Assembly: GCA_005791255.1 (NCBI GenBank)
Contig: SXXK01000481.1
Span: 1-37,034, forward strand
Length of the DNA: 37,034 nucleotides
Direction of reading: 5' to 3'
Source of the DNA: Planctomyces sp.
GTDB taxonomy: Bacteria > Planctomycetota > Planctomycetia > Planctomycetales > Planctomycetaceae
The notes below the pieces were generated by a model. The model did not search any database. It was not told the DNA's origin and saw nothing but the letters and a program-made list of their open reading frames with translations. This document shows, in pieces, positions 6,354 to 31,005 of this stretch. Numbering within the stretch: position 1 is the stretch's first letter; each line of letters begins with the position of its first letter. The position numbers and the translations under genes are program-made.

Positions 6354-7280
6354 ATGAATTCACCAAATCCGTTGGCCGCACAGTTGCAGCAGGCACGCGG
6401 TCTGATTCGCAGCAGGCAGATTCAGCAGGCAATTGATCTGCTGCAGAATCTGCCGGAACTCAGCAAAAACGAAGATGGCCTGCTGCTGCATGGCACCGCC
6501 TGCTTTCGTGCCGGCCAGCTGGAGGCCGCCCGCACGTCCTTCGAAACGCTGACTCGCGATTTCCCTCAGTGCATTGCCGGCTGGGTCAATCTGGGCGCGG
6601 CACTCAATAAACTGGGTGAACACAAAAAGGCCATCGAGATCTTCCGACGGGCAGTACAGAAGGACCGTCGCTGCGCTGACGCATGGTACAACATGGGGAT
6701 CGCCCAGCGGGCACTCAAAATGCAGACCATGGCCATCTCTGCGTGGAAAGAGGCCCTCAAAATCAACCCGGATTTCGCGGATGCCCACCTGCAACTGGCT
6801 CGCACGTACTGGGATATGAAGAATCTGGGACTCGCGCAGAAGTGCCTGCACGACGTTTTGCGACTGCAGCCTGAATCTGCTCGCGCCAAAGCCATGCTGG
6901 CCGAAATTCAGGGTGCTCAGAAAGTCGCCCGCAGCAGCTCGTCACCTTTCGGACGACTGGTCGATCTCGAAGCCCTGCAACAGAAAGCCAGCACCGCCCC
7001 CCGCGTGCTGACTCCGCCCGCTCGCGATGCCGAACGCGAAATGTTGCAGAACCTGACAAAACCCGTCCGCCAGGCCGCTCGTGACCTCGCACCCCTGCTC
7101 GCTGAATCGCTCCAGCAGAAACTGCACAAACTCGAACGCATCATCGTCGACACAGCAAACCGCAGTCACTCCCCCGAAGCCCTCGAGGAACTCGCACAGC
7201 AGACTCAGGAAATCCACGACCTGCTCACCAGCATTTCCTCCGCCGCCAGTCAGGTCCGCAAACACCTCGGGCAGGCCTGA
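6354..7280 (+). CDS. Tetratricopeptide-repeat protein
   Basis: A 308-residue protein without signal peptide or membrane segment. About four TPR units are visible: residues about 41-74 (GLLLHGTACFRAGQLEAAR), 75-108 (GWVNLGAALNKLGEHKKAI), 109-142 (AWYNMGIAQRALKMQTMAI) and 143-176 (AHLQLARTYWDMKNLGLAQ). The C-terminal part (about 225-308) is a Leu/Gln/Glu-rich helical region that may form a coiled coil. TPR proteins act as scaffolds for protein-protein contacts; the partner is unknown. I start at the ATG at 6354, with GGGATCGGA just upstream and the helical domain beginning immediately; an earlier in-frame ATG at 6219 would add 45 residues with no conserved character. It converges with the flavoprotein gene, whose stop is eight bases away. 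Confidence 0.85.
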   Translation: MNSPNPLAAQLQQARGLIRSRQIQQAIDLLQNLPELSKNEDGLLLHGTACFRAGQLEAARTSFETLTRDFPQCIAGWVNLGAALNKLGEHKKAIEIFRRAVQKDRRCADAWYNMGIAQRALKMQTMAISAWKEALKINPDFADAHLQLARTYWDMKNLGLAQKCLHDVLRLQPESARAKAMLAEIQGAQKVARSSSSPFGRLVDLEALQQKASTAPRVLTPPARDAEREMLQNLTKPVRQAARDLAPLLAESLQQKLHKLERIIVDTANRSHSPEALEELAQQTQEIHDLLTSISSAASQVRKHLGQA

Positions 7281-21487: not shown

Positions 21488-21951
21488 TGTTGACAGCGAA
21501 TCCGGGTGACTTCAGACACTGTAAACGGCGGCGAGAAACCGTGGCGCTCGGCGGGTGCGTGGCGGGCGGTAGAATCGTGCAGCGCCCAAATGTTCAGTTG
21601 TTGACTTCGTGATTCGTTGGAAGGCCGTCATCATGGCGGGTTTCCGGGTGAACGATCCGGAGGAGACAAGTGACGCGGGTGTTCACCAATATGGAGATTT
21701 GGGTTGAAGTGCGCCGTCGCGTTTTGACGGGCGAGTTGAGTAAACGAGCGGCGTGTCGGGAATACAAAATTCACTGGCAGACGCTCGAAAACATTCTCGG
21801 CCATTCCGAGCCGCCGGGGTATCAAAAAACGAAGCCACGGTCGTCGATCGTGGATGCGTTTGAGCCGATCATTGAGGAGATTCTCAAGAGCGACCGGCAG
21901 GTTCACCGCAAGCAGCGTCACACGGCTCGACGGATCTTTGAGCGGCTGAGG
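21488..21951 (+). mobile_element. Remnant of an IS21-family insertion sequence (left end plus istA start)
   Basis: The first about 94 codons of the gene at 21670 encode the N-terminus of an IS21-family transposase IstA: a helix-turn-helix type region (EIWVEVRRRVLTGELSKRAA) and then HSEPPGYQKTKPRSS and DRQVHRKQRHTARRIFERLR. After that the similarity stops and a glycosyltransferase begins; the rest of istA, istB and the right end are absent. The 180 bases upstream look like the IS leader with its own ribosome-binding site. The left boundary is a guess: TGTTGACAGCG at 21488 starts with TG as IS21 ends often do, and CCGGGTGA recurs at about 21502 and 21647, as internal end-repeats might. Confidence 0.7.
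21659..21665 (+). promoter_or_regulatory. Strong Shine-Dalgarno of transposon origin
   Basis: GGAGGAG lies four bases before the GTG at 21670. It belongs to the IS21 leader, so the glycosyltransferase is now translated from the transposase's start signals. Most genes around have weaker sites. Confidence 0.7.
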
Positions 21952-24189
21952 GTCGCGCAGGTGATCACCAGCCTGCAGCGCGGCGGCGCTGAGCGGCTGG
22001 CGCTGGACCTGCACAGCGAGTGGCTGGCAGATACAGAGCTGAATCCGTTGCTGCTGTCCCTCGCTGCGCCGGGAAGAACGGCCTTTCCAGTGCCCGACAG
22101 GTGCCTGGTACTGCCGCCACAGCCCGCTCGGTACGAACGCGTGCCTGCTGCTGTCAAGGTGCTGGAGCGTTACTGTGTCGATCTTGTGCACTGTCATTTG
22201 CTGGATCAGTCGGAACTGCGGCAGTTGGCCACTCTCGGGGTCCCGCGGATGCTCACTGTGCACAATGCTCGACAGGGCTGGACGAGCGGAACGGAATCAC
22301 TGACGTCGGAGGACGTAAGCCTGCTGATTGGCTGTTCCATGTGTGTGACGGCAGAGCTCGGGCAGTGTGCTGGACGAGTGCCCGTGCGGACGATCTGGAA
22401 CGGCATTCGTGAATCGGGCGGTGCACTGTCGCGACAGGCAGCCGGTGAGCGGAACGCGCGGGAACAGGCTGGCCGGCAGAAGCTGCGCAGGGAATTGGCG
22501 ATTCCGCCGGATGCGATCGTCATAGTGGCAGTTGCCAATATACGGCCGCAAAAGCGTCTGGAACGATTGCCAGCGGTCCTTGGGGAGCTGCAGGCATTGC
22601 TTAAGCAGGAGGCGGAGGATCGCCCTGTGCACCTGATTCTGGCAGGAGAACGTTCGTCACAGCATGAGCAATCCATGCAGGCTGATGCCCTTCTGGACAG
22701 TGCGATTACGGAATATGCTGTTGCCGAGTACGTGCATCGAATTGGCAGCGTGGAAGACACCAGGGCCCTGCTGTCATGCTGCGATGCACTGGTTAGTGTC
22801 AGTGACTATGAAGGTTTGAGTCTTGTGCATCTGGAAGCTCTCGCGGCAGGCATTCCGGTGATTGCCACTGCCGTTGGCGGGACGCCGGAGATTGCTGCCG
22901 CGAGTCCTGCTGTGGAAGTCCTGCCTCCGGAATTGACGGCGGCTGAGTTTGCTGAAACGGTGTGGCGAGTGTTGAAAAAGTCAGGTGGCATGACAATTAA
23001 ACTGCCGGAGGTATTTTCACTGCGGGCCATGTCCGTGCGATACCGGCAGTTCTTTCCGCGACTGGTCGGCTGCGATGTCCGGCAGGCGTGCAGGGGGCTG
23101 CTGCTGGTCATCAATAATCTGTCGACGGGTGGCGCGCAAACCAGCGCCAGACGACTGCTGAAGGAATTGCGGCGCCGCGGAGTCCCTGTGCGAGCCGTAG
23201 TGCTGCAGGAGGTGCCGGAGTACCCGACTCCGGGTCGTCTGGATTTGCTGGCGGTCGGTATTCCGGTGATGGTGCTGCCGCTGGCTGGCAGGACGGCGTC
23301 GCTGGCCGCAATGCACCCGCTGCTGTTGGAACTTGATCGGGAGCAACCAGCGGCAGTGGCGTTCTGGAATGTGATGCCGGCGGTGAAGATGCTGCTGGCG
23401 GATGCGCTGCCGGGAATTCACAAGTTCGACGTCAGTCCCGGTGAAATGAATTTTGAATCGCTGGAGCGGTACTTTGCGAGGCCGCGAGCTGATCTGCCGA
23501 TTCGCAGCTCGAGGGATTACGGACGGCTGCTGGCCGGTGCTGTGGTGAAATATGGCAGACAGCGTGCGGTGGCTGCTGCTCAGTTGCAAACAGAAATGCA
23601 CGTGATCCCGAACGGTGTCGATTTGCCGGCACGAGTGAGGGAGCACGGGCCGCGTGAACGAGTGATCCTGGGGACTTCAGCACGCATCAGTCCGCAGAAG
23701 AAGCTTGAACAGTCGCTCGGAGCATTGCGTCTGGCGTTGCCGCAGCTGCCGGATTGTGAGTTATGGATCGCAGGGGCACCCGACCGCGACTGCGAAGCGT
23801 ATGCGCAGGATTTGCGGCGGCTGGCAGCCGGACTGCCGGTGATCTGGCTGGGCGAAGTTCAGGACGTTGGCAGCTTTCTGCAGCAGCTGGATGTCTTTGT
23901 GATGATTTCGCATCCGGCGGGATGTCCGAATGCGTCACTCGAGGCCCTCGCTGCGGGGTTGCCGGTCATTGCGACGGATTACGGAGGCGTGCATGAACAG
24001 GTACTGGATGGTGTGAACGGAAAGCTTGTGCCGGACGGAGCGGAATCGGAGTTTGCCAGTGCGATGATTCTGCTGGCGCAGGATGCGGCGCTGCGGAGCG
24101 AGTGGGGACGCAACGCCAGGACGCATGCGGAGGCCCATTTCAGGATGGACCGGATGGTGGCTGGTTATGTTGAGGCTCTGGGTTTGTGA
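21670..24189 (+). CDS. IS21 IstA N-terminus fused to a tandem GT4 glycosyltransferase
   Basis: An 839-residue open frame. Residues 1-94 are IstA-type transposase sequence. From about 95 (RVAQVITSLQRGGAERLAL) a GT4 glycosyltransferase begins exactly as GT4 enzymes usually do, with DLVHCHLLDQSEL, NIRPQKRLERLP, and the EX7E motif intact (Glu381, Glu389 in YEGLSLVHLEALAAG). A second GT4 module starts near 475 (LLVINNLSTGGAQTSARRLL) with HVIPNGVDLPA and ISPQKKLEQS; its EX7E has Ala750 in place of the first Glu (HPAGCPNASLEALAAG, Glu758). GT4 enzymes transfer sugars from nucleotide donors, in cell-envelope or exopolysaccharide assembly. The start is the IS-derived GTG. The native GT start codon and any of its residues before the joint have been lost. 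Confidence 0.85.
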   Translation: MTRVFTNMEIWVEVRRRVLTGELSKRAACREYKIHWQTLENILGHSEPPGYQKTKPRSSIVDAFEPIIEEILKSDRQVHRKQRHTARRIFERLRVAQVITSLQRGGAERLALDLHSEWLADTELNPLLLSLAAPGRTAFPVPDRCLVLPPQPARYERVPAAVKVLERYCVDLVHCHLLDQSELRQLATLGVPRMLTVHNARQGWTSGTESLTSEDVSLLIGCSMCVTAELGQCAGRVPVRTIWNGIRESGGALSRQAAGERNAREQAGRQKLRRELAIPPDAIVIVAVANIRPQKRLERLPAVLGELQALLKQEAEDRPVHLILAGERSSQHEQSMQADALLDSAITEYAVAEYVHRIGSVEDTRALLSCCDALVSVSDYEGLSLVHLEALAAGIPVIATAVGGTPEIAAASPAVEVLPPELTAAEFAETVWRVLKKSGGMTIKLPEVFSLRAMSVRYRQFFPRLVGCDVRQACRGLLLVINNLSTGGAQTSARRLLKELRRRGVPVRAVVLQEVPEYPTPGRLDLLAVGIPVMVLPLAGRTASLAAMHPLLLELDREQPAAVAFWNVMPAVKMLLADALPGIHKFDVSPGEMNFESLERYFARPRADLPIRSSRDYGRLLAGAVVKYGRQRAVAAAQLQTEMHVIPNGVDLPARVREHGPRERVILGTSARISPQKKLEQSLGALRLALPQLPDCELWIAGAPDRDCEAYAQDLRRLAAGLPVIWLGEVQDVGSFLQQLDVFVMISHPAGCPNASLEALAAGLPVIATDYGGVHEQVLDGVNGKLVPDGAESEFASAMILLAQDAALRSEWGRNARTHAEAHFRMDRMVAGYVEALGL

Positions 24190-24346: not shown

Positions 24347-25393
24347 ATGGGTGTGACTCGGAAGCCAATGCGGGAATCGGCAGAAGCTGATTGGCGTGGC
24401 GGGTGCGATGCCGGACGTGGCATCGGTGCTGTCGGTCGGCGGTTCTTTTGGTTGCTGTTCCTCGGGCTGTGTTTCGCGCGCGGACCTGCGGAGGCTCGGG
24501 CGCAGGAAACGGAGACAGCCGCGGCGCCCGGTTCGGTGATCGCAGAACTGGCAAAAGAGGCTGCGAAGGTTCAGCCGTTTTTGCAGGGCAAATGGACCAA
24601 GCAGTGGGCTGAGCAGGCAGGTAAGCTTGAGCCTGTTCGTCCGCGCCGAATCATGTCGGGGCAGCGGGAAGTGCTGGTGGATGAGTCATTTTTCTATGCG
24701 GGTCGGTATGGATCGCCACTGACGTACGGGCGTGTTCTTGATCTGGCTGAGAAGCATGGATTTTCGCCATCGGCGGGGGCTCGAGTGTTTGATTTCGGTT
24801 ACGGCAGTATTGGGCATTTACGAATGCTGGCTCAATCGGGGCTGCAGGTGACTGGCGTGGACGTGGATGAATTGCTGCCGGTGATGTACGAGAAGTGTTC
24901 GGGGCCGTGCGGCAGTGGCAGTGTGCTGCTGCTGAATGGTCGCTTTCCGGCCGAGGAAGAGCTCGTGCAGAAAGCGGGTACGGGATATGACTTGTTCCTC
25001 TCGAAAAACACATTGAAGCGCGGTTACATTCATCCGGCTCGTGAGCCTGCCAGTCCTCGCCATGTAATCCGGCTGGGTGTTTCGGACGAAAAATATCTGC
25101 AGCAGGTATTTGATATGCTGAAGCCCGGCGGTTTGTTCTGCATTTACAACTTTTGCCCGGCGAAGGCAGCAGACGATAAACCGTACATCACCTGGGCCGA
25201 CGGTGAATCTCCTTTTTCGAAGGAACAGTTTGAAGCGGCGGGTTTTGAGGTGCTTGAATTTGACGTGGTCGATGATCAGCCGGCTCGGGAACTGGGGCAT
25301 CTGCTGGGGTGGGACGCCGAGGGCGGGATGCAGCTGCAGACTGATTTGTTTGCGTGGTATTCAATAGCAAGGAAGCGACCGAGCGTTCCATAG
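24347..25393 (+). CDS. Exported class I SAM-methyltransferase-like protein
   Basis: A 348-residue protein. A long charged N-region is followed by GRRFFWLLFLGLCFARGPAE and an AxA-type cleavage site near EARAQ, so the protein appears to be exported or membrane-anchored. The rest is a Rossmann-like methyltransferase: VFDFGYGSIGHLRMLAQSG (motif I in the form DFGYGSxG), VTGVDVDELLPVMYEK (acidic loop), YDLFLSKNTLKRGYIHP, QVFDMLKPGGLFCIYNFCP (post-motif) and a closing alpha/beta part. SAM is cytoplasmic, so export of an active enzyme would be odd; it may be anchored with the domain inside. Start ATG at 24347, with AAAGGGG at longer spacing. It precedes the Tes-like operon on the same strand, 169 bases away. 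Confidence 0.75.
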   Translation: MGVTRKPMRESAEADWRGGCDAGRGIGAVGRRFFWLLFLGLCFARGPAEARAQETETAAAPGSVIAELAKEAAKVQPFLQGKWTKQWAEQAGKLEPVRPRRIMSGQREVLVDESFFYAGRYGSPLTYGRVLDLAEKHGFSPSAGARVFDFGYGSIGHLRMLAQSGLQVTGVDVDELLPVMYEKCSGPCGSGSVLLLNGRFPAEEELVQKAGTGYDLFLSKNTLKRGYIHPAREPASPRHVIRLGVSDEKYLQQVFDMLKPGGLFCIYNFCPAKAADDKPYITWADGESPFSKEQFEAAGFEVLEFDVVDDQPARELGHLLGWDAEGGMQLQTDLFAWYSIARKRPSVP

Positions 25394-25562
25394 CGGGCAA
25401 CCATGTCAGGCTGATGACTGTCGCGACTGCAGCCGGAGGTCCTCGCAGCCGTTTCTGTACGGCATCTTTCAGCGGTATCCGGCTTGCGGTCCGCCTGTAT
25501 TCCTGGTAGGGTTTCTGCTGCTGTAATTGCGGACAGTTCACGCCTTCTTCAGGCAGGTGCCC

Positions 25563-26252
25563 ATGCGTGGTCGAATTCAGCCATTGATGTCAGCGGACGC
25601 GTCCGAGTCTGCGTGGTATGTCCTTTGTCGCTGGCGGCAGTACGTTGCCGAGCAGCGAGTGAATGTGCTCAGAATCTGCACGATCGCCCTGTTTTATCTG
25701 GTGCACCTGCTGCGGTATCAGGCGGGGGCAGGCACGAGCTGGCTGGGTTTTCTCCAGGAAGGTGGTGCCGGCGGGATTTCATTTCAGCGTCATCTGGCCA
25801 TCACAGTCGTGGTTGCCGGCTGGGTGCTATGGAGTCTGACAGTGCATGTGCTGCTGCTGGATCGAGTTTTTCCGCAGCGTCTGCCATTGGTCTCGATCTG
25901 CCTCGACTGTGCTTTTCTGACGGCAGTGCTGGTGTGCAGTTCGGGAGCTGCCAGTCCCCTTGTGTGTGGTTATTTTTTGATTGTGATGATGGCGGGGCTG
26001 CGTTTGAATCTGGCGTGGGTGCGAGCAGCGGCAGGCTGTTCACTGGCAGGCTATTTGATACTGCTGGGCTGCAGTCGCTGGCCGATGGGAATGCTGCTGG
26101 CCGACCCGTTGCCAGTTATTCCACGCTATCATCAGATCGTGGTGGGGCTGGCAATCGTGTTTTCCGGTGTGATTGTGGGGCAGATTGTCCGGCATGTGCG
26201 ACAGATGGCTGAATCGCTGATGATGGGTTCTCTGCGGGAGCGTCAATCATGA
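25563..26252 (+). CDS. Polytopic membrane protein of unknown function
   Basis: A 229-residue protein with about six membrane segments: VLRICTIALFYLVHLL, HLAITVVVAGWVLWSLTVHV, LVSICLDCAFLTAVLVC, LVCGYFLIVMMAGLRL, AAAGCSLAGYLILLGC and IVVGLAIVFSGVIVGQIV. The layout resembles the sensory membrane part of histidine kinases or cyclases, but no output domain follows. I do not recognise a family. The ATG at 25563 has AGGTG just upstream; ATGs at 25527 and 25587 are alternatives. The gene overlaps the next by four bases (ATGA), so both are translationally coupled in the operon leading to the radical SAM gene. Confidence 0.7.
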   Translation: MRGRIQPLMSADASESAWYVLCRWRQYVAEQRVNVLRICTIALFYLVHLLRYQAGAGTSWLGFLQEGGAGGISFQRHLAITVVVAGWVLWSLTVHVLLLDRVFPQRLPLVSICLDCAFLTAVLVCSSGAASPLVCGYFLIVMMAGLRLNLAWVRAAAGCSLAGYLILLGCSRWPMGMLLADPLPVIPRYHQIVVGLAIVFSGVIVGQIVRHVRQMAESLMMGSLRERQS

Positions 26253-26917
26253 GTGCTGCTCCGTCCGGCTCGCGATGCAGTCGCTGTGGCGCTTCACGGA
26301 AACAGGGAGATTCATTCTGCTGGCTATGTTTTTCGCCGCTGGAGACTGCCGTTGCGGCACAGGAGCAGGCGTCTTCGTCGACCGTGCGGACGGTTCGTTC
26401 CTCTTCGGCTGTCCCTGCAGAGATTGAGACAGAGAGCTCGGTGAGCAATCCATTCCAGCTGGACGCCTCTGTATCCGAATCCGTCAGTGCCGGCTCCGGG
26501 GCAGCACTGGCGGTTTTGCTGCTGCTGCTGTTTGTGATTTTTCTTGTGACGCTGGTGCTTTTTCAGACCATGCCGGGTGTTGCGATTCTGTTTGGATTGT
26601 TTGTCGTGGTGCCGCTGTTTCGGACGCTGATTGTGTCCTCGCACCGGGCCCGGCGCGGTAAGCCCGTCAGCGTGGCTCGCAGGATCGAAATGTTTCTTGC
26701 ATCGTTGGCAGTGATGGTGGGGCTGGTGCTGTTGTGGGGATTGAGTGCAGTTATTGGTCTTGTGGTGCTGTGTTTTACCGCTGCCGGTGCAAGTCAGGGT
26801 GGCAGCGATCCGACACCGCTGATTGTGTTGGTCGGAGCGGGTATTGTGGGGGTGGTGCTGGTACTGACATCAATGGTGGTGTGGTCGCGATTTCGGAAAG
26901 ACGTAGACAGGGACTAA
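26249..26917 (+). CDS. Zinc-ribbon membrane protein
   Basis: A 222-residue protein. The N-terminus has a zinc ribbon: Cys10 and Cys13 (CSRCG), Cys24 and Cys27 (CWLCF). A Ser/Thr/Val-rich linker follows, then about four to five membrane segments (ALAVLLLLLFVIFLVTLVLF, GVAILFGLFVVVPLF, MFLASLAVMVGLVLLWGL, LIVLVGAGIVGVVLVLTSMV) and a short charged tail. The pattern zinc ribbon plus membrane segments is frequent in planctomycetes and has no fixed role. It overlaps the upstream gene by four bases and is ten bases before the radical SAM gene, so a joint function with these is likely. Confidence 0.75.
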   Translation: MSAAPSGSRCSRCGASRKQGDSFCWLCFSPLETAVAAQEQASSSTVRTVRSSSAVPAEIETESSVSNPFQLDASVSESVSAGSGAALAVLLLLLFVIFLVTLVLFQTMPGVAILFGLFVVVPLFRTLIVSSHRARRGKPVSVARRIEMFLASLAVMVGLVLLWGLSAVIGLVVLCFTAAGASQGGSDPTPLIVLVGAGIVGVVLVLTSMVVWSRFRKDVDRD

Positions 26918-26927
26918 CGGTGCTGAC

Positions 26928-28475
26928 ATGTCCGGGCTGAAACTGCGCGATCATCGTTTTCTCGGGGCCACATCCAGCATGTGTCCGCAGTGCCTTGCGG
27001 TGGTGCCGGCAAAGATTGTGTCGCGAAACGGCCGGGTGTATTTTCGCAAGCAGTGCCCGCAGCATGGAGTTCGCGAGGATTTTGTCTGCAGTGATGATCG
27101 CTGGTTTGATCGGATGGAGTACAGTCTGCCGGGGAAGGTTCCGGCCTCCTTCGCAGTAACTCCGCAGCGCGGCTGCCCTTACGACTGCGGTCTGTGCACG
27201 GAGCACGAACAGCATACCTGCGTGGCAGTGCTGGAAATTTCAACCTCCTGCAATCTGACGTGTCCCCTGTGCTACGCATCGAGTCGGCCGGGCGGAGTGC
27301 ACCTGCCGGTGGCGGAGTGTCAGCGAGCCATCGATTTTCTGGTGCGATATGAGGGGCGTCCGGAGATTCTGCAACTGTCAGGTGGTGAGCCCACCATTCA
27401 TCCGCAGTTTGTTGAAATCCTGGATTACGCGTGTCGACAGCCGATCGACATTGTGATGATCAATACCAATGGAGTGCGACTGGCGTCGGATCAGAGGCTG
27501 CTGGATGAACTGGCGCAGCGGAATCGGCGTTGCGAGGTGTATCTGCAGTTTGATGGGCTGGATGAGGCCAGCAGTCAGACGCTGCGAGGTGAGCCGCTGC
27601 TGGAAACGAAGCTGCGGGCGATCGAAGAGCTGGGGCGCCGCGATATTCGGACGATCCTGGTCTGCACGGTGGAAACCGACGTGAACACGGCTCAGCTGGG
27701 AGACATTGTGCGATTCGGGGCCGAACGCCCGTGGATTACTGGCGTGAGCTTTCAGCCCGCAACCTACGTGGGGCGATGTCCGCTGCCTGAGACGCTGGAG
27801 CGGCGGGTGACATTCCCGGACATTATCAAGGGGCTGGCCGATCAGTCGCAGGGCATCTGGCGACAGGCGGATTTTCTCCCGCTGCCCTGTGCCCATCCCA
27901 ACGCTCATTCCCTCGCCTATGCCTACCGGGAACAGGGCCGACTGACTCCGCTGACACGATTCATCGATATCCAGAATCATCTGGATCTGCTGGCCAACGG
28001 AATTACTTTCAATCGGACCAGTGCGCAGGAACTGATTGCGAAGTTTATCTCGCGACAGGGGTGTGGCTGTGCGGGGGATTGTGGTGAGTCTGTGGCAGCC
28101 AGCGGGCCCGGCTTTTCAAATGTTTTGCAGGGCGGTCCGACCGGCGGTCCGATGCGAGGCAGTTCGGGGGATGTGCCGCTGGATCCCGAAACGGAACGCA
28201 TGGCCATGTCGTTCTTTCGGCGAGTGCTCAGTCAGGATCTTTCGCCGTCCGACGTGTTCCGCATCACGACGACCAGTTTCATGGATGCATACAATTTTGA
28301 TATCCGGCAACTGATGAAGGGTTGCGTGCATCATTTGCTGCCCAGTGGTCATCTGATTCCATTCTGTGCTTACAATCTGCTGTATCGTGACGGGCATGTG
28401 CCGTTGCCGCCCCTCTCGGCGTCGGCCGGCCACCCTGCGGATCGTGAACTTGTCACATTGGAAGTTCCGGGCTGA
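26928..28475 (+). CDS. Radical SAM protein of the tetraether lipid synthase (Tes/MJ0619) type
   Basis: A 515-residue protein. The N-terminal part has Cys19/Cys22 (CPQC) and CPQHG at 43-47, a rubredoxin-like site, then GCPYDCGLCTEHEQHTC (82-98), a signature of the MJ0619 family, with Cys83, Cys87 and Cys90. The radical SAM cluster site is CNLTCPLC (Cys108, Cys112, Cys115), followed by LSGGEPTIHP. Later come GCGCAGDCG and the closing CVHHLLPSGHLIPFCAYN. In archaea Tes (MJ0619) couples two lipid tails through an unactivated carbon-carbon bond to give membrane-spanning tetraether lipids; bacterial homologues are candidates for membrane-spanning lipid synthesis but are mostly untested. The cysteine count supports several iron-sulphur clusters. 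The next gene starts inside this stop codon (TGATG). Confidence 0.85.
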   Translation: MSGLKLRDHRFLGATSSMCPQCLAVVPAKIVSRNGRVYFRKQCPQHGVREDFVCSDDRWFDRMEYSLPGKVPASFAVTPQRGCPYDCGLCTEHEQHTCVAVLEISTSCNLTCPLCYASSRPGGVHLPVAECQRAIDFLVRYEGRPEILQLSGGEPTIHPQFVEILDYACRQPIDIVMINTNGVRLASDQRLLDELAQRNRRCEVYLQFDGLDEASSQTLRGEPLLETKLRAIEELGRRDIRTILVCTVETDVNTAQLGDIVRFGAERPWITGVSFQPATYVGRCPLPETLERRVTFPDIIKGLADQSQGIWRQADFLPLPCAHPNAHSLAYAYREQGRLTPLTRFIDIQNHLDLLANGITFNRTSAQELIAKFISRQGCGCAGDCGESVAASGPGFSNVLQGGPTGGPMRGSSGDVPLDPETERMAMSFFRRVLSQDLSPSDVFRITTTSFMDAYNFDIRQLMKGCVHHLLPSGHLIPFCAYNLLYRDGHVPLPPLSASAGHPADRELVTLEVPG

Positions 28476-29158
28476 TGTGGGCTTACACGGCAATCATGTG
28501 TCTGGCTGTGGGTGTGGCGTTTGTGCTGTCTCGTCGTACGCAGCGCGGGCTGGGACTGGCGCCGGCTGAGCGACTGGGTGTGGGACTGGGGGCATTCTGC
28601 GGAGCGATGATCGGGGCGAAGCTGCCATTTGTGTTTTCGGACTGGCAGGCGTTTTTGAGCGGTGCAGCCTGGTTTTCTGACGGTAAAACAATCCTGCTGG
28701 GTATGGCGGGCGGATATCTGGGTGTCGAAGCGGCGAAGTGGAGTCTGGGCGTCAGGACTCGGACCGGGGACAGCTTTGCATTGCCGGTGGCTGCTGCGAT
28801 CGCGATTGGCCGAATTGGCTGTTTCGTGGGCGGGTGCTGCTTTGGCACGCCGACGAGTCTGCCGTGGGGTGTGGTGTTTCCGCAGGTTGATCAGCTGCCC
28901 CGGCATCCGGTGCAATTGTACGAAGCGGCATTTCATACTGTCGCCGCCCTCCTGCTGAGCGCAGCTCTGCAGCGGCAGTGGTGTCGCGGTCAGCTGATCA
29001 AGATTTACGTCGTCGTGTACGCAGGCTGGCGATTTCTGACGGAGTTCATCCGCCCTGAAATTCGCCTGCTGGCCGGCCTGACCTGGTACCAGTGGGCCAG
29101 TGTGGTCCTGATGGCCGGATTCGGCTGGCTTTGGTATCACGACTCCAGAAAGCGTTAA
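28475..29158 (+). CDS. Lgt-like prolipoprotein diacylglyceryl transferase family protein
   Basis: A 227-residue membrane protein. It has the Lgt motifs in modified form: IGRIGCFVGGCCFG (111-124) in place of the Arg-x-Gly-Asn motif of Lgt, HPVQLYE (144-150), and WRFLTEFIRPE (185-195) carrying an Arg and Glu like those essential in E. coli Lgt. It is shorter than housekeeping Lgt (about 280-300 residues) and has Cys-rich replacements, so it may act on another acceptor. Lgt moves diacylglyceryl from phosphatidylglycerol to a lipoprotein cysteine. Its coupling to a Tes-like gene suggests work on the same lipids. It overlaps the radical SAM stop and converges with DUF1501, both stops overlapping within TTAA. 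Confidence 0.82.
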   Translation: MWAYTAIMCLAVGVAFVLSRRTQRGLGLAPAERLGVGLGAFCGAMIGAKLPFVFSDWQAFLSGAAWFSDGKTILLGMAGGYLGVEAAKWSLGVRTRTGDSFALPVAAAIAIGRIGCFVGGCCFGTPTSLPWGVVFPQVDQLPRHPVQLYEAAFHTVAALLLSAALQRQWCRGQLIKIYVVVYAGWRFLTEFIRPEIRLLAGLTWYQWASVVLMAGFGWLWYHDSRKR

Positions 29159-30558
29159 CCAAACAGATCCATGATGGGTTTTCCGGTGGTCAGGGTGCGA
29201 AACATGCCGGTAGCATCAATTGGGTTGTTGATGGGAATGTCGAGTGCGTGATAGATGGTCGCAGCCAGTTCTTCCGGGCGAACGGCATTGTGCGTGGGGA
29301 ATTCGCCATAGCGGTTGGATTTGCCGTAAACCTGTCCGCCTTTGATGCCGGCACCGGCAAGGATGGTTGAAAAGCATTGTGGCCAGTGCTGGCGTCCCGG
29401 AGGGTCCTGTTTCAGGACATACGGTGTGCGCCCAAACTCCCCTGTCACGACAACCAGAGTATTCTTTAGCAGGCCGGACTGCTGAAGATCGGTCAGCAGT
29501 GCTGACAGTGCCTGATCAAGACGCGGCAGGCAGAATCCCATGCCATACGAGCCGTCGCCGAAGGCGTTGCCCATGCCCATGTTTCCGCCATGCATGTCCC
29601 AGCTGCTGCTGGGGGGGCCGCTTTTGTCGTGAGTGGCCTGTCCGGCCCAGCCATTGACCGTAATGAAGCGAACGCCGGCTTCCACCATGCGTCGAGCCAG
29701 CAGCAGGTTTTGCCCCAGCGGGTGCATGCCGTAGCGATTGCGGACTGCATCCGGCTCGCGGTGCAGTTCGAAAGCGGCGCGGCCTTCGGTGCGAGTCATG
29801 GCGTCGTAGGTCTTGGCTCGCAGGTCCGACCAGTCCTTAACCTGCTTGTCACGGTCATAGCGAGCAGATTCCAGCTGCGCAAGCAGGCCGCGACGATCAC
29901 CGAAACGACTTTCATCCACCGGCGCGTAGATTTCAGGGGCCTGAAAGGTCGGCATGGCCGGATGATTTTCAGCCGAACCTACGAAGACCGGGGCGTAGGC
30001 GGAACCGAGGTAGCCACCGATTCCGATGTTCGGAGCACAGAACACCGGAGGTCCGACGCACTTGATCAGCCAGGCGTTGGAGACGAAGTTGCGGGTGCTG
30101 GGTTTGTGGCGGGCAACAATCGAGCCCAGATAGGGCTGATCGTTCAGAATGCCCTCCTGAACTCGTTTGGTGGACTGCCCGCTGAGCAGGTTGTGCATCG
30201 CATCAAAATGGTTGCTGATCGATCCCGGGTGGTGCATGGAGTTGATCAGGGTGAACTGGTCGGCCACCTTTGCCAGCTCTGTGTGCATTTCATTGATCAG
30301 CATACCGGGCACGCGGGTTTCGATGGGCGTATAGGGCCCACGATAATCCACCGGGGCATCGGGTTTCATGTCCCAGGTATCGACGTGGCTGGGGCCGCCG
30401 CACAGCAAAATGAAGATGCACGACTTTTCAGCCCGCACCGCCTGTCCGGCGTCATTGACTTCATCGCTGCCCATGACAACACCCGGCATGCTCATGCTGA
30501 GTGTGCCCAGTCCACCGGCCAGCATTGCCTGGCGACGATTGAATTGCAGATCTTTCAT
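29155..30558 (-). CDS. DUF1501 protein with Tat-like signal
   Basis: A 467-residue exported protein. The N-terminus FNRRQAMLAGGLGTLSMSMP has a twin-arginine-like signal. The domain follows the DUF1501 pattern: FILLCGGPSHVDTWDMKPDA, PVDYRGPYTPIETRVPGM, TLINSMHHPGSISNHFDAM, LLLARRMVEAGVRFITVNGW, WDMHGGNMGMGNAFG and VVVTGEFGRTPYV. DUF1501 is an alkaline-phosphatase/sulfatase-related fold very common in planctomycetes; it usually sits next to a DUF1549/DUF1553 cytochrome-type gene, which is not adjacent here. The ATG at 30558 is chosen because the signal starts there; the frame continues upstream without domain content. Confidence 0.88.
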   Translation of the reverse strand: MKDLQFNRRQAMLAGGLGTLSMSMPGVVMGSDEVNDAGQAVRAEKSCIFILLCGGPSHVDTWDMKPDAPVDYRGPYTPIETRVPGMLINEMHTELAKVADQFTLINSMHHPGSISNHFDAMHNLLSGQSTKRVQEGILNDQPYLGSIVARHKPSTRNFVSNAWLIKCVGPPVFCAPNIGIGGYLGSAYAPVFVGSAENHPAMPTFQAPEIYAPVDESRFGDRRGLLAQLESARYDRDKQVKDWSDLRAKTYDAMTRTEGRAAFELHREPDAVRNRYGMHPLGQNLLLARRMVEAGVRFITVNGWAGQATHDKSGPPSSSWDMHGGNMGMGNAFGDGSYGMGFCLPRLDQALSALLTDLQQSGLLKNTLVVVTGEFGRTPYVLKQDPPGRQHWPQCFSTILAGAGIKGGQVYGKSNRYGEFPTHNAVRPEELAATIYHALDIPINNPIDATGMFRTLTTGKPIMDLFG

Positions 30559-31005
30559 TACCCGACCACTTTCCTGACTGGTGGCGCTGGTTGACGGACT
30601 ACGCCGCGAAAGGCCACTGGGGAGCATGGCGAATACCCGGTTCAATAGCAAGTCTTGTCGGCGGCAATAGCGGTTACGATGGACACCATGAAGCGTTTTT
30701 TACAGATTTACGGGTTTACCAGCCGCCGGCAGAACACTCGACCAGGGCTGGCCGGCACAAGGATCGACCAGCAGTACGAACAGACTTGGCAGACTACTGG
30801 GAACAGCATGTCTGCAGGGTAGGAAATCCACGCATTCCAGCAAATCAGGTCGCTGTCCGCCACGACTCGCTGACGATTGTTCCGTGCTGAATGATTCGAG
30901 AGCAGGGTTGCTGCAGTGATTTCTGCGGCAGAATCTTGACCACGGGGCCTGATGCCAGCAGCATCTTCGCAGGTCTGCTGCTTCAATATCCTTTGGAGAT
31001 TCCCA
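30559..31005. other. Divergent spacer between DUF1501 and SUMF1 genes
   Basis: About 447 bases without a supported gene. A 44-codon frame beginning ATGAAGCGTTTT at 30688 and ending TAG at 30820-30822 is the only one with a natural-looking start, but it lacks a ribosome-binding site and any domain. No strong promoter pair or hairpin was found. A GGAG at 30995-30998 belongs to the SUMF1 gene. Confidence 0.4.

Follow-up and report, generated by a model that had tools for sequence, protein, structure and literature searches.

A tetraether synthase-like radical SAM protein and an Lgt paralogue form a linked gene pair in several bacterial phyla

The window analysed here is the whole of a 37,034-nucleotide stretch of DNA from Planctomyces sp. 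(contig SXXK01000481.1 of assembly GCA_005791255.1, a genome of 542 contigs and 5.58 Mb). It carries two adjoining forward-strand genes, the first of which (26928-28475) encodes a 515-residue radical S-adenosylmethionine (SAM) protein of the Tes/TrsS superfamily, Tes being tetraether lipid synthase. The second (28475-29158) encodes a 227-residue, seven-helix membrane protein resembling the diacylglyceryl transferase Lgt. An initial annotation, made from the sequence alone, had described a Tes-like radical SAM gene coupled to an Lgt-like gene, and we could place both open reading frames exactly: at the junction, which reads TGATG, a single A is common to the stop codon of the first gene and the start codon of the second.

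In Pfam, the radical SAM protein matched PF23545 (6.5e-18) and PF04055 (6.9e-17). The highest-scoring curated model in NCBIfam was TrsS (NF045646) at 340.8 bits, yet this is far under its cut-off of 490; Tes (NF045702) came second at 289.3 bits against a cut-off of 450, so that the Tes-family membership expected by the initial annotation was not upheld by the profile comparison. Five Lgt-linked and five unlinked relatives likewise gave no score over any NCBIfam cut-off (0/10), and for three of the five unlinked relatives the Tes model was top-scoring or level within 0.1 bit. Two other planctomycete proteins did exceed the Tes cut-off (locus L093, 3721-5361, 576.6 bits; locus L095, 3296-5026, 576.4 bits), and the Tes model therefore does recognise Tes in Planctomycetota. 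The TrsS model found no protein over its 490-bit cut-off in 149 planctomycete genomes.

The nearest solved relative by sequence (phmmer against a copy of the PDB) was the Methanocaldococcus jannaschii tetraether synthase GDGT-MAS (MJ0619; 7tol, 7.9e-72). An AlphaFold2 model of the radical SAM protein (mean predicted local distance difference test score (pLDDT) 81.5, predicted template modelling score (pTM) 0.84) superposed on 7tol and 7tom over its whole length, about 508 columns, with template modelling (TM) scores of 0.72-0.76 (for 7tol, E 5.5e-36 and TM 0.72/0.75). The signature cysteine motifs named in the initial annotation were located in the protein: GCPYDCGLC supplies C83/C87/C90, which with H93 form the site of the N-terminal cluster; CNLTCPLC supplies C108/C112/C115, the radical SAM (RS) motif; and CPQHG, a case of CPxHG, supplies C43/H46, which join C19/C22 in a rubredoxin-like site. 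The corresponding Tes ligands are C9/C12/C33/H36, C73/C77/C80 plus a His for the N-terminal [Fe4S4] cluster, and the RS motif CX3CX2C (PMC9433317; this and all other articles are cited from excerpts of their text). All were matched, and the window protein thus shares with Tes the whole fold and these three sites. The catalytic architecture of Tes is also attributed, in a 2026 paper, to the bacterial membrane-spanning lipid synthase Mss (PMC13274423).

The Lgt-like protein passed the Pfam LGT model PF01790 (7e-31; 107.8 bits, cut-off 24.9) and matched six NCBIfam Lgt models, in every case with a score under the cut-off (for TIGR00544, 53.5 of 118.9 bits; for PRK00052, 86.8 of 334 bits). Its nearest solved relative was Escherichia coli Lgt (5azb, 6.2e-7), and this structure was also the sole PDB match below 0.001 (E 5.4e-6, TM 0.66) of an AlphaFold2 model with seven helices, mean pLDDT 91.6 and pTM 0.88. 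The protein shares with E. coli Lgt the fold, the seven helices and equivalents of R143, R239, D129, Y235, E243 and G154, keeping R113 and R186 (for R143 and R239), D99, Y182 and E190. It departs from Lgt in having C116 in place of N146 and L74 in place of H103, and in carrying the partner-specific residues K71-T72, E85 and K88. A second, higher-scoring LGT protein is encoded elsewhere in the window genome (locus L038; 178.7 versus 108.5 bits).

The pair recurs in Planctomycetota, Bacteroidota, Bacillota, Acidobacteriota, Cyanobacteria and Proteobacteria. We scanned named genomes with a single radical SAM alignment and kept the best 80 of 568 relatives, chosen by radical SAM similarity alone. 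In 70 of these 80 loci an Lgt-like gene lay on the same strand within 6 kb, usually directly upstream; the linked record titles include Flavobacterium, Maribacter, Mucilaginibacter, Chitinophaga, Paenibacillus, Brevibacillus, Acidobacteria, Cylindrospermum, Burkholderiales and Elusimicrobia. Five of the ten unlinked loci (L138, L140, L180, L185, L204) have a contig end within about 320 bases of the radical SAM gene. At one of the 70 linked loci (L159, 922-1668, from a Flavobacterium metagenome-assembled genome (MAG)) the Lgt-like gene is broken by stops and the radical SAM frame is open. Among all 155 distinct radical SAM proteins collected, 108 were linked, 104 of them within 1.5 kb, and the remaining 47 comprise 24 for which over 3 kb can be seen to either side and 23 that lie closer to a contig end. 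The two genes were on the same strand in all 108 linked cases, and no locus had an Lgt-like gene on the opposite strand only.

Presence across genomes gave the same picture. Among 198 Bacteroidota genomes, scored at 1e-40 or better for the radical SAM protein (18 genomes) and below 1e-30 for the Lgt-like protein (17 genomes), 16 had both, two the radical SAM gene alone, one the Lgt-like gene alone and 179 neither (p 1.8e-20). In one of the 16 (G474) the two genes are on different contigs, and in G536, which was scored as radical SAM-only, a weaker Lgt match lies 0.5 kb from the radical SAM gene. The coupling is thus far beyond chance. The conserved linkage that the initial annotation had proposed to seek among planctomycetes was found there and, beyond them, in several phyla.

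Within Planctomycetota, 58 of 392 genomes had a radical SAM match at 1e-30 or better in a search that scored at most three candidates per genome, so that absences are lower bounds. By hand count, the contig of the radical SAM gene also carried an Lgt-like match in 40 of the 58, at a distance of no more than about 1.5 kb save in G243 (3.8 kb). The other 18 comprise twelve with only unlinked-clade or Tes-clade enzymes, three in which the contig is short or ends near the gene (G186, G260, G279), two with a radical SAM subclade that has a different neighbour (G101, G160), and one with no Lgt-like neighbour despite 3.7 kb visible on either side (G081). Among the 334 genomes without a radical SAM match, an Lgt-like match better than 1e-25 occurred only in G307, where a piece of a radical SAM gene lies beside it at a contig end. 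In the genus of the window, ten of 18 genomes had both genes, one had the radical SAM gene alone (G014) and seven had neither; in four of the ten (G003, G006, G008, G016) the partner is on a different contig from the radical SAM gene.

A 51-row tree of radical SAM proteins resolved five clades, all of which have 100% bootstrap support: the Tes clade (5 rows, including MJ0619), A (12 rows, including the window protein), B (19 rows, widespread), C (4 rows) and U (11 rows, unlinked). Support was 100/100 for the Tes clade and 100/98 for clade A; the branch uniting the two had only 76/76, in a tree read as unrooted. Neither this nor the larger tree holds a genuine TrsS sequence, so the TrsS branch is missing from both. 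The Tes-clade placement implied by the initial annotation therefore gave way to one in clade A, apart from MJ0619 and from the two planctomycete proteins scoring over the Tes cut-off. For the larger tree we took 112 of 157 rows, thinning named loci to about one in three; in it the Lgt-linked share was 15/20 in A, 45/58 in B, 6/7 in C, 0/22 in U and 0/4 among Tes-clade planctomycete rows, the share in B being lowered by nine named loci, unlinked ones included, that were retained deliberately. The free tree did not unite the linked clades A, B and C, and the data do not reject their monophyly (approximately unbiased test, p-AU 0.384; for A and B together, 0.113). Gene order differed by clade, with the partner downstream in 14 cases in A, upstream in 82 and downstream in six in B, and downstream in five and upstream in one in C. 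Since the linkage is kept in both orders, the bond between the genes survives rearrangement.

The clades also differ in their cysteines. We took C338, C455 and C470 of MJ0619 as the ligands of the Tes C-terminal cluster, a presumption from the conservation pattern, as these ligands are not named in the searched text of the Tes paper. The three cysteines are present in 4, 4 and 4 of 4 Tes rows, 7, 7 and 7 of 7 clade C rows and 22, 21 and 21 of 22 clade U rows, and are mostly gone from clade A (7, 6 and 10 of 20) and clade B (22, 0 and 0 of 58). The window protein has A326, G465 and C480 at these positions, keeping one of the three. Where Tes has Met439 and Tyr459, reported to be invariant in 1,000 archaeal homologues, it has T449 and H469; the M439A, Y459F and Y459L mutants of Tes are reported to be still active, so these positions make a weak test. 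In the 112-row alignment, clades A and B retain the rubredoxin-like, N-terminal and RS cysteines. They also share a triad, C98, C321 and C466 in the window protein, found in 20, 20 and 19 of 20 clade A rows, 57, 58 and 57 of 58 clade B rows and 7, 7 and 7 of 7 clade C rows; clade C proteins thus carry both cysteine sets. In clade U the triad positions are occupied singly in 10, 11 and 14 of 22 rows and jointly in nine. The four Tes-clade planctomycete rows have 0, 1 and 0, the single case being L093, and MJ0619 has I88, S313 and C456, matching only the last. In Tes, the first radical is held by a C-S bond to an iron-sulfur cluster, which is central to the mechanism (PMC9433317). Because the cysteines of the presumed C-terminal cluster are mostly lost in A and B, Tes-type C-C coupling is not to be assumed for these enzymes, which probably use an auxiliary site other than that cluster.

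A clade A radical SAM gene (L107, in genome G144, contig C293) has a single in-frame TGA at 6396-6398, within the Cys-rich loop, which reads CCAPGES*G; the neighbouring L113 reads CCGPGESCG, with Cys at that position, and the window protein has a Cys-rich loop around C379/C385. SelB scored over its cut-off in the L107 genome, and the TGA is a candidate selenocysteine codon; no SelB over the cut-off was found in the window's own genome. In clade U, four planctomycete loci (L037, L074, L081, L096) have adjoining Tes-like radical SAM gene pairs with no Lgt partner. The members of such pairs keep the presumed Tes C-terminal cluster cysteines, and one pair occurs in the genus of the window (G006). 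Two long stop-to-stop frames (L101, 3465-6767, 1100 residues; L102, 3233-5668, 811 residues) have a Tes-like C-terminal part; the cysteines of the N-terminal cluster are missing from both.

In a tree of 87 LGT proteins, made by a quick method with support from the Shimodaira-Hasegawa-like approximate likelihood ratio test only, a branch with 99% support splits 66 partners from 21 canonical Lgts. Our profile of Lgt neighbours is not specific, as it also gives canonical planctomycete Lgts scores of 97-160 bits, and it is on this split that we regard the partners as a separate family. E85, K88, D99, G112, R113, C116, G120 and Y182 are invariant in 66/66 partners, and R186 is present in 65, the other having a gap there. 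In the alignment R113 and R186 correspond to R143 and R239, both essential in E. coli Lgt (PMC4728403). Position H103 lies in a motif proposed to bind the lipobox peptide (PMC4728403); it is essential in E. coli Lgt, and other Lgts have His, Tyr, Trp or Phe there (PMC13251419). The 21 canonical proteins in our tree have H (15) or Y (6) there, and the 66 partners V (36), L (16), M (7), T (5) or I (2). At the C116 column all 66 partners have Cys and the canonical Lgts have N (17), C (3) or S (1); Cys at the N146 position has been described in some distant Lgts, one of which works partly in E. coli (PMC13251419).

The initial annotation had singled out the altered motif GRIGCF. This proved to be a trait of the lineage: GRIGCF is also present in L038, the other LGT protein encoded by this genome, and GRxGC is read by 12/18 planctomycete Lgt homologues with no adjacent radical SAM gene. 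The useful mark of a partner is E85 and K88 after a GKT/GKS-like turn. Only two of 20 Lgt-homologue loci without a then-known adjacent radical SAM gene have both residues: one (L229) has a piece of a radical SAM gene beside it, and in the other (L228) no radical SAM gene was found. In the remaining 18, Glu at position 85 was seen in 0/15, with three gapped, and a radical SAM gene in 0/18. Of 24 named radical SAM genomes searched, the 22 linked ones each encode at least one further LGT protein, and the two partner-less ones encode two (G423) and one (G436).

Taken together, these data establish a cross-phylum module of an Lgt paralogue and a Tes-superfamily radical SAM protein with sequence marks of their own. 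Our best guess is that the pair has a role on membrane lipids. More specifically, with a probability of about one half, it may constitute a dedicated two-enzyme membrane module in which a glyceryl-type transferase and a radical enzyme contribute to one membrane-lipid product. The Lgt-like protein would bind a diacylglycerol phospholipid, such as phosphatidylglycerol, and transfer or present its glyceryl part. We think that phospholipid handling is retained because the partners are a paralogue family of their own, with the Lgt fold and the arginines that handle phosphatidylglycerol. The acceptor would be something other than a lipobox cysteine, since His103 is lost, a new Glu/Lys pair is gained and another Lgt is also present. 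The radical SAM protein would use a 5'-deoxyadenosyl radical to attack an unactivated C-H bond of the same lipid or of its acceptor, and a radical or sulfur step may take place at an auxiliary site built from C98/C321/C466 in replacement of the Tes C-terminal cluster. We would expect the product to be a membrane lipid or lipid anchor that has been modified or bridged; it is accessory and sporadic.

A number of observations weigh against this proposal. Since proteins are the substrates of the housekeeping Lgt, a protein may be the acceptor here too. The trees of the two proteins do not match throughout: the partners of five clade B radical SAM proteins (L071, L073, L075, L116, L120) join those of clade C, and the partner of L162, whose radical SAM protein is in B, groups with those of A. 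Single genomes break the association, namely G506 (radical SAM gene and no partner, with a distant 31% match), G457 (partner without a radical SAM gene) and G014 of the window's genus, where no partner was found. The radical SAM model is weak at 375-406 and 491-513. Furthermore, a well-supported subclade of B (L164 from Shewanella canadensis, L185, L191 and, from planctomycetes, L082 and L106) is without any Lgt-like neighbour. All five of these proteins keep the triad, which is also complete in nine of the 22 unlinked U rows; the triad therefore marks clades and not linkage. The subclade indicates that the Lgt partner is not obligatory, and its role would there be either replaceable or not needed.

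In four of the five loci of this subclade a DUF547-type reading frame and then a methyltransferase gene follow downstream of the radical SAM gene (L164, 7493-9213; L191, 7428-9145; and downstream in L106 and L082), and L185 has the methyltransferase only, without DUF547 (1796-2587). Pfam and NCBIfam were run on the neighbours at L164, L185 and L191. The three methyltransferases were nearest to DVU_1556 (152.8, 141.6 and 129.4 bits, below the cut-off of 155), with the arsenite methyltransferase model second for all three, and DUF547 was over its Pfam cut-off in both proteins tested.

We considered whether the acceptor might be a protein or peptide, such that the Lgt-like protein would lipidate a non-lipobox cysteine of a dedicated substrate and the radical SAM protein would modify that peptide or its anchor. 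Lgt itself lipidates proteins, there is a proposal that MYXO-CTERM proteins are modified at non-lipobox cysteines by an Lgt-like transferase (PMC11980579), and runs of small membrane proteins lie beside several clade A pairs. However, clustering of the neighbours at the best 80 loci revealed no specific third gene across phyla among the top 40 clusters. Several large clusters were shadow frames of the two genes, the next true family was an ABC-transporter ATPase (12 of the 80 loci, at scattered places and on both strands), and small membrane proteins recurred in six Bacillota and six Sphingobacteriaceae loci. The structure search also placed the radical SAM protein far closer to the lipid enzyme GDGT-MAS (5.5e-36) than to any listed peptide maturase (1.3e-11). 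We therefore hold a peptide substrate to be possible but doubtful.

A bacterial tetraether or membrane-spanning lipid synthase, in which the radical SAM protein would couple lipid tail ends in the manner of Tes, with the Lgt-like protein providing or loading those lipids, would account for the retained Tes fold and for three of the four metal sites. Bacterial Tes homologues have been proposed to make branched glycerol dialkyl glycerol tetraethers (Zeng 2022, PMC8941075) and were reported in 110/684 Planctomycetota MAGs in a Black Sea study (PMC11868695). Against this, the window protein falls under the Tes cut-off and sits in a clade of its own, and the most widespread linked clade, B, keeps the presumed C455 and C470 in 0/58 rows, whereas radical storage at that cluster is central in Tes (PMC9433317). 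For the two proteins scoring over the Tes cut-off, the DNA retrieved around the gene contains no Lgt-like gene (for L093, with only 1.7 kb visible downstream). In addition, ordinary Flavobacteriaceae and Paenibacillaceae are among the carriers, and we know of no tetraether or membrane-spanning lipids in these families. We consider this reading unlikely; membrane-spanning lipids are a possible product, not favoured over other C-H chemistry, and neither they nor ether lipids are specifically supported by the data.

A pathway for a small molecule or metalloid, in which the radical SAM substrate is a metabolite of thiolated or arsenic type and the Lgt-like protein has no role beyond its anchoring or export, would fit the first-ranking TrsS match, the methyltransferase and DUF547 neighbours of the partner-less subclade and the candidate selenocysteine codon of L107, but is very unlikely, as those neighbours were met in one subclade only, the window has neither, and a transferase paralogue with its catalytic arginines kept would be an odd anchor.

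A bolder version of the two-enzyme membrane module, which we regard as a long shot, would have the pair make a previously unknown, thioether-bridged and possibly membrane-spanning glycerolipid in ordinary soil and marine bacteria. Lgt, the parent enzyme, attaches its diacylglyceryl group to a thiol. Here, a radical SAM protein with a rewired cluster might halt at an acyl chain bearing a reactive sulfur or other functional group, and the Lgt-like enzyme might cap that chain with a second diacylglyceryl group from phosphatidylglycerol. Tes supplied with only about one equivalent of SAM has been reported to accumulate a sulfur-added lipid (PMC9433317).

We found no description of the pair in a search of open-licence papers, preprints excluded, and the term Lgt was absent from the main texts of PMC8941075, PMC11868695 and PMC13274423. 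The two-gene module, in which a lipid transferase has been duplicated and a radical enzyme rewired, is spread over several phyla and points to an apparently undescribed membrane modification. It also bears on the counts of Tes homologues used in lipid geochemistry. Zeng 2022 counted bacterial Tes homologues by BLAST at E <1e-50 and >20% identity (PMC8941075), and since the window protein matches 7tol at 7.9e-72, proteins like it may well be in those counts. Reading such counts as branched-tetraether makers could mislead, as many of the homologues, from planctomycetes and other bacteria, may belong to the Lgt-linked group, in which the presumed C-terminal cluster is replaced. The presence of the pair in cultured Paenibacillus, Chitinophaga, Mucilaginibacter and Maribacter makes its function directly testable.

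In the window, tight spacing suggests that the pair is likely to end a four-gene operon on the forward strand. The gene at 25527-26252 encodes a membrane protein with several transmembrane helices, its TTG start being uncertain, and has a counterpart upstream of the radical SAM gene at 10/20 clade A loci. The gene at 26249-26917 overlaps it by four bases and is separated from the radical SAM gene by ten; it encodes a small membrane protein that has an NPF motif and, in its N-terminal part, CxxC pairs resembling a zinc ribbon, and related reading frames occur upstream of the radical SAM gene at 11/20 clade A loci, with a weak match in L028. A Pfam search gave no match for either protein. The convergent DUF1501 gene at 29155-30651 (reverse strand) is excluded from the proposed operon. 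We rejected a link between the upstream methyltransferase gene at 24347-25390 and DVU_1556/TrsM, as the first match was weak (0.0046), no family was found at 0.001 and, among the 20 clade A loci, the gene adjoins the pair only in G010. No tRNA was found in the window, and Rfam at gathering scores gave no match in the window or in four further loci. The long reading frame at 21670-24189, as read from its translation, comprises two glycosyltransferase-like halves behind a transposase-like N-terminus, and its true start is probably further in. At three other loci (L033, 3736-8893; L110, 2464-6258; L111, 7509-10841) the radical SAM-Lgt pair is preceded by runs of small proteins with multiple transmembrane helices, several of which have NPY/NPF-SP-like N-termini; overlapping frames are among these matches, and we therefore give no count of them.

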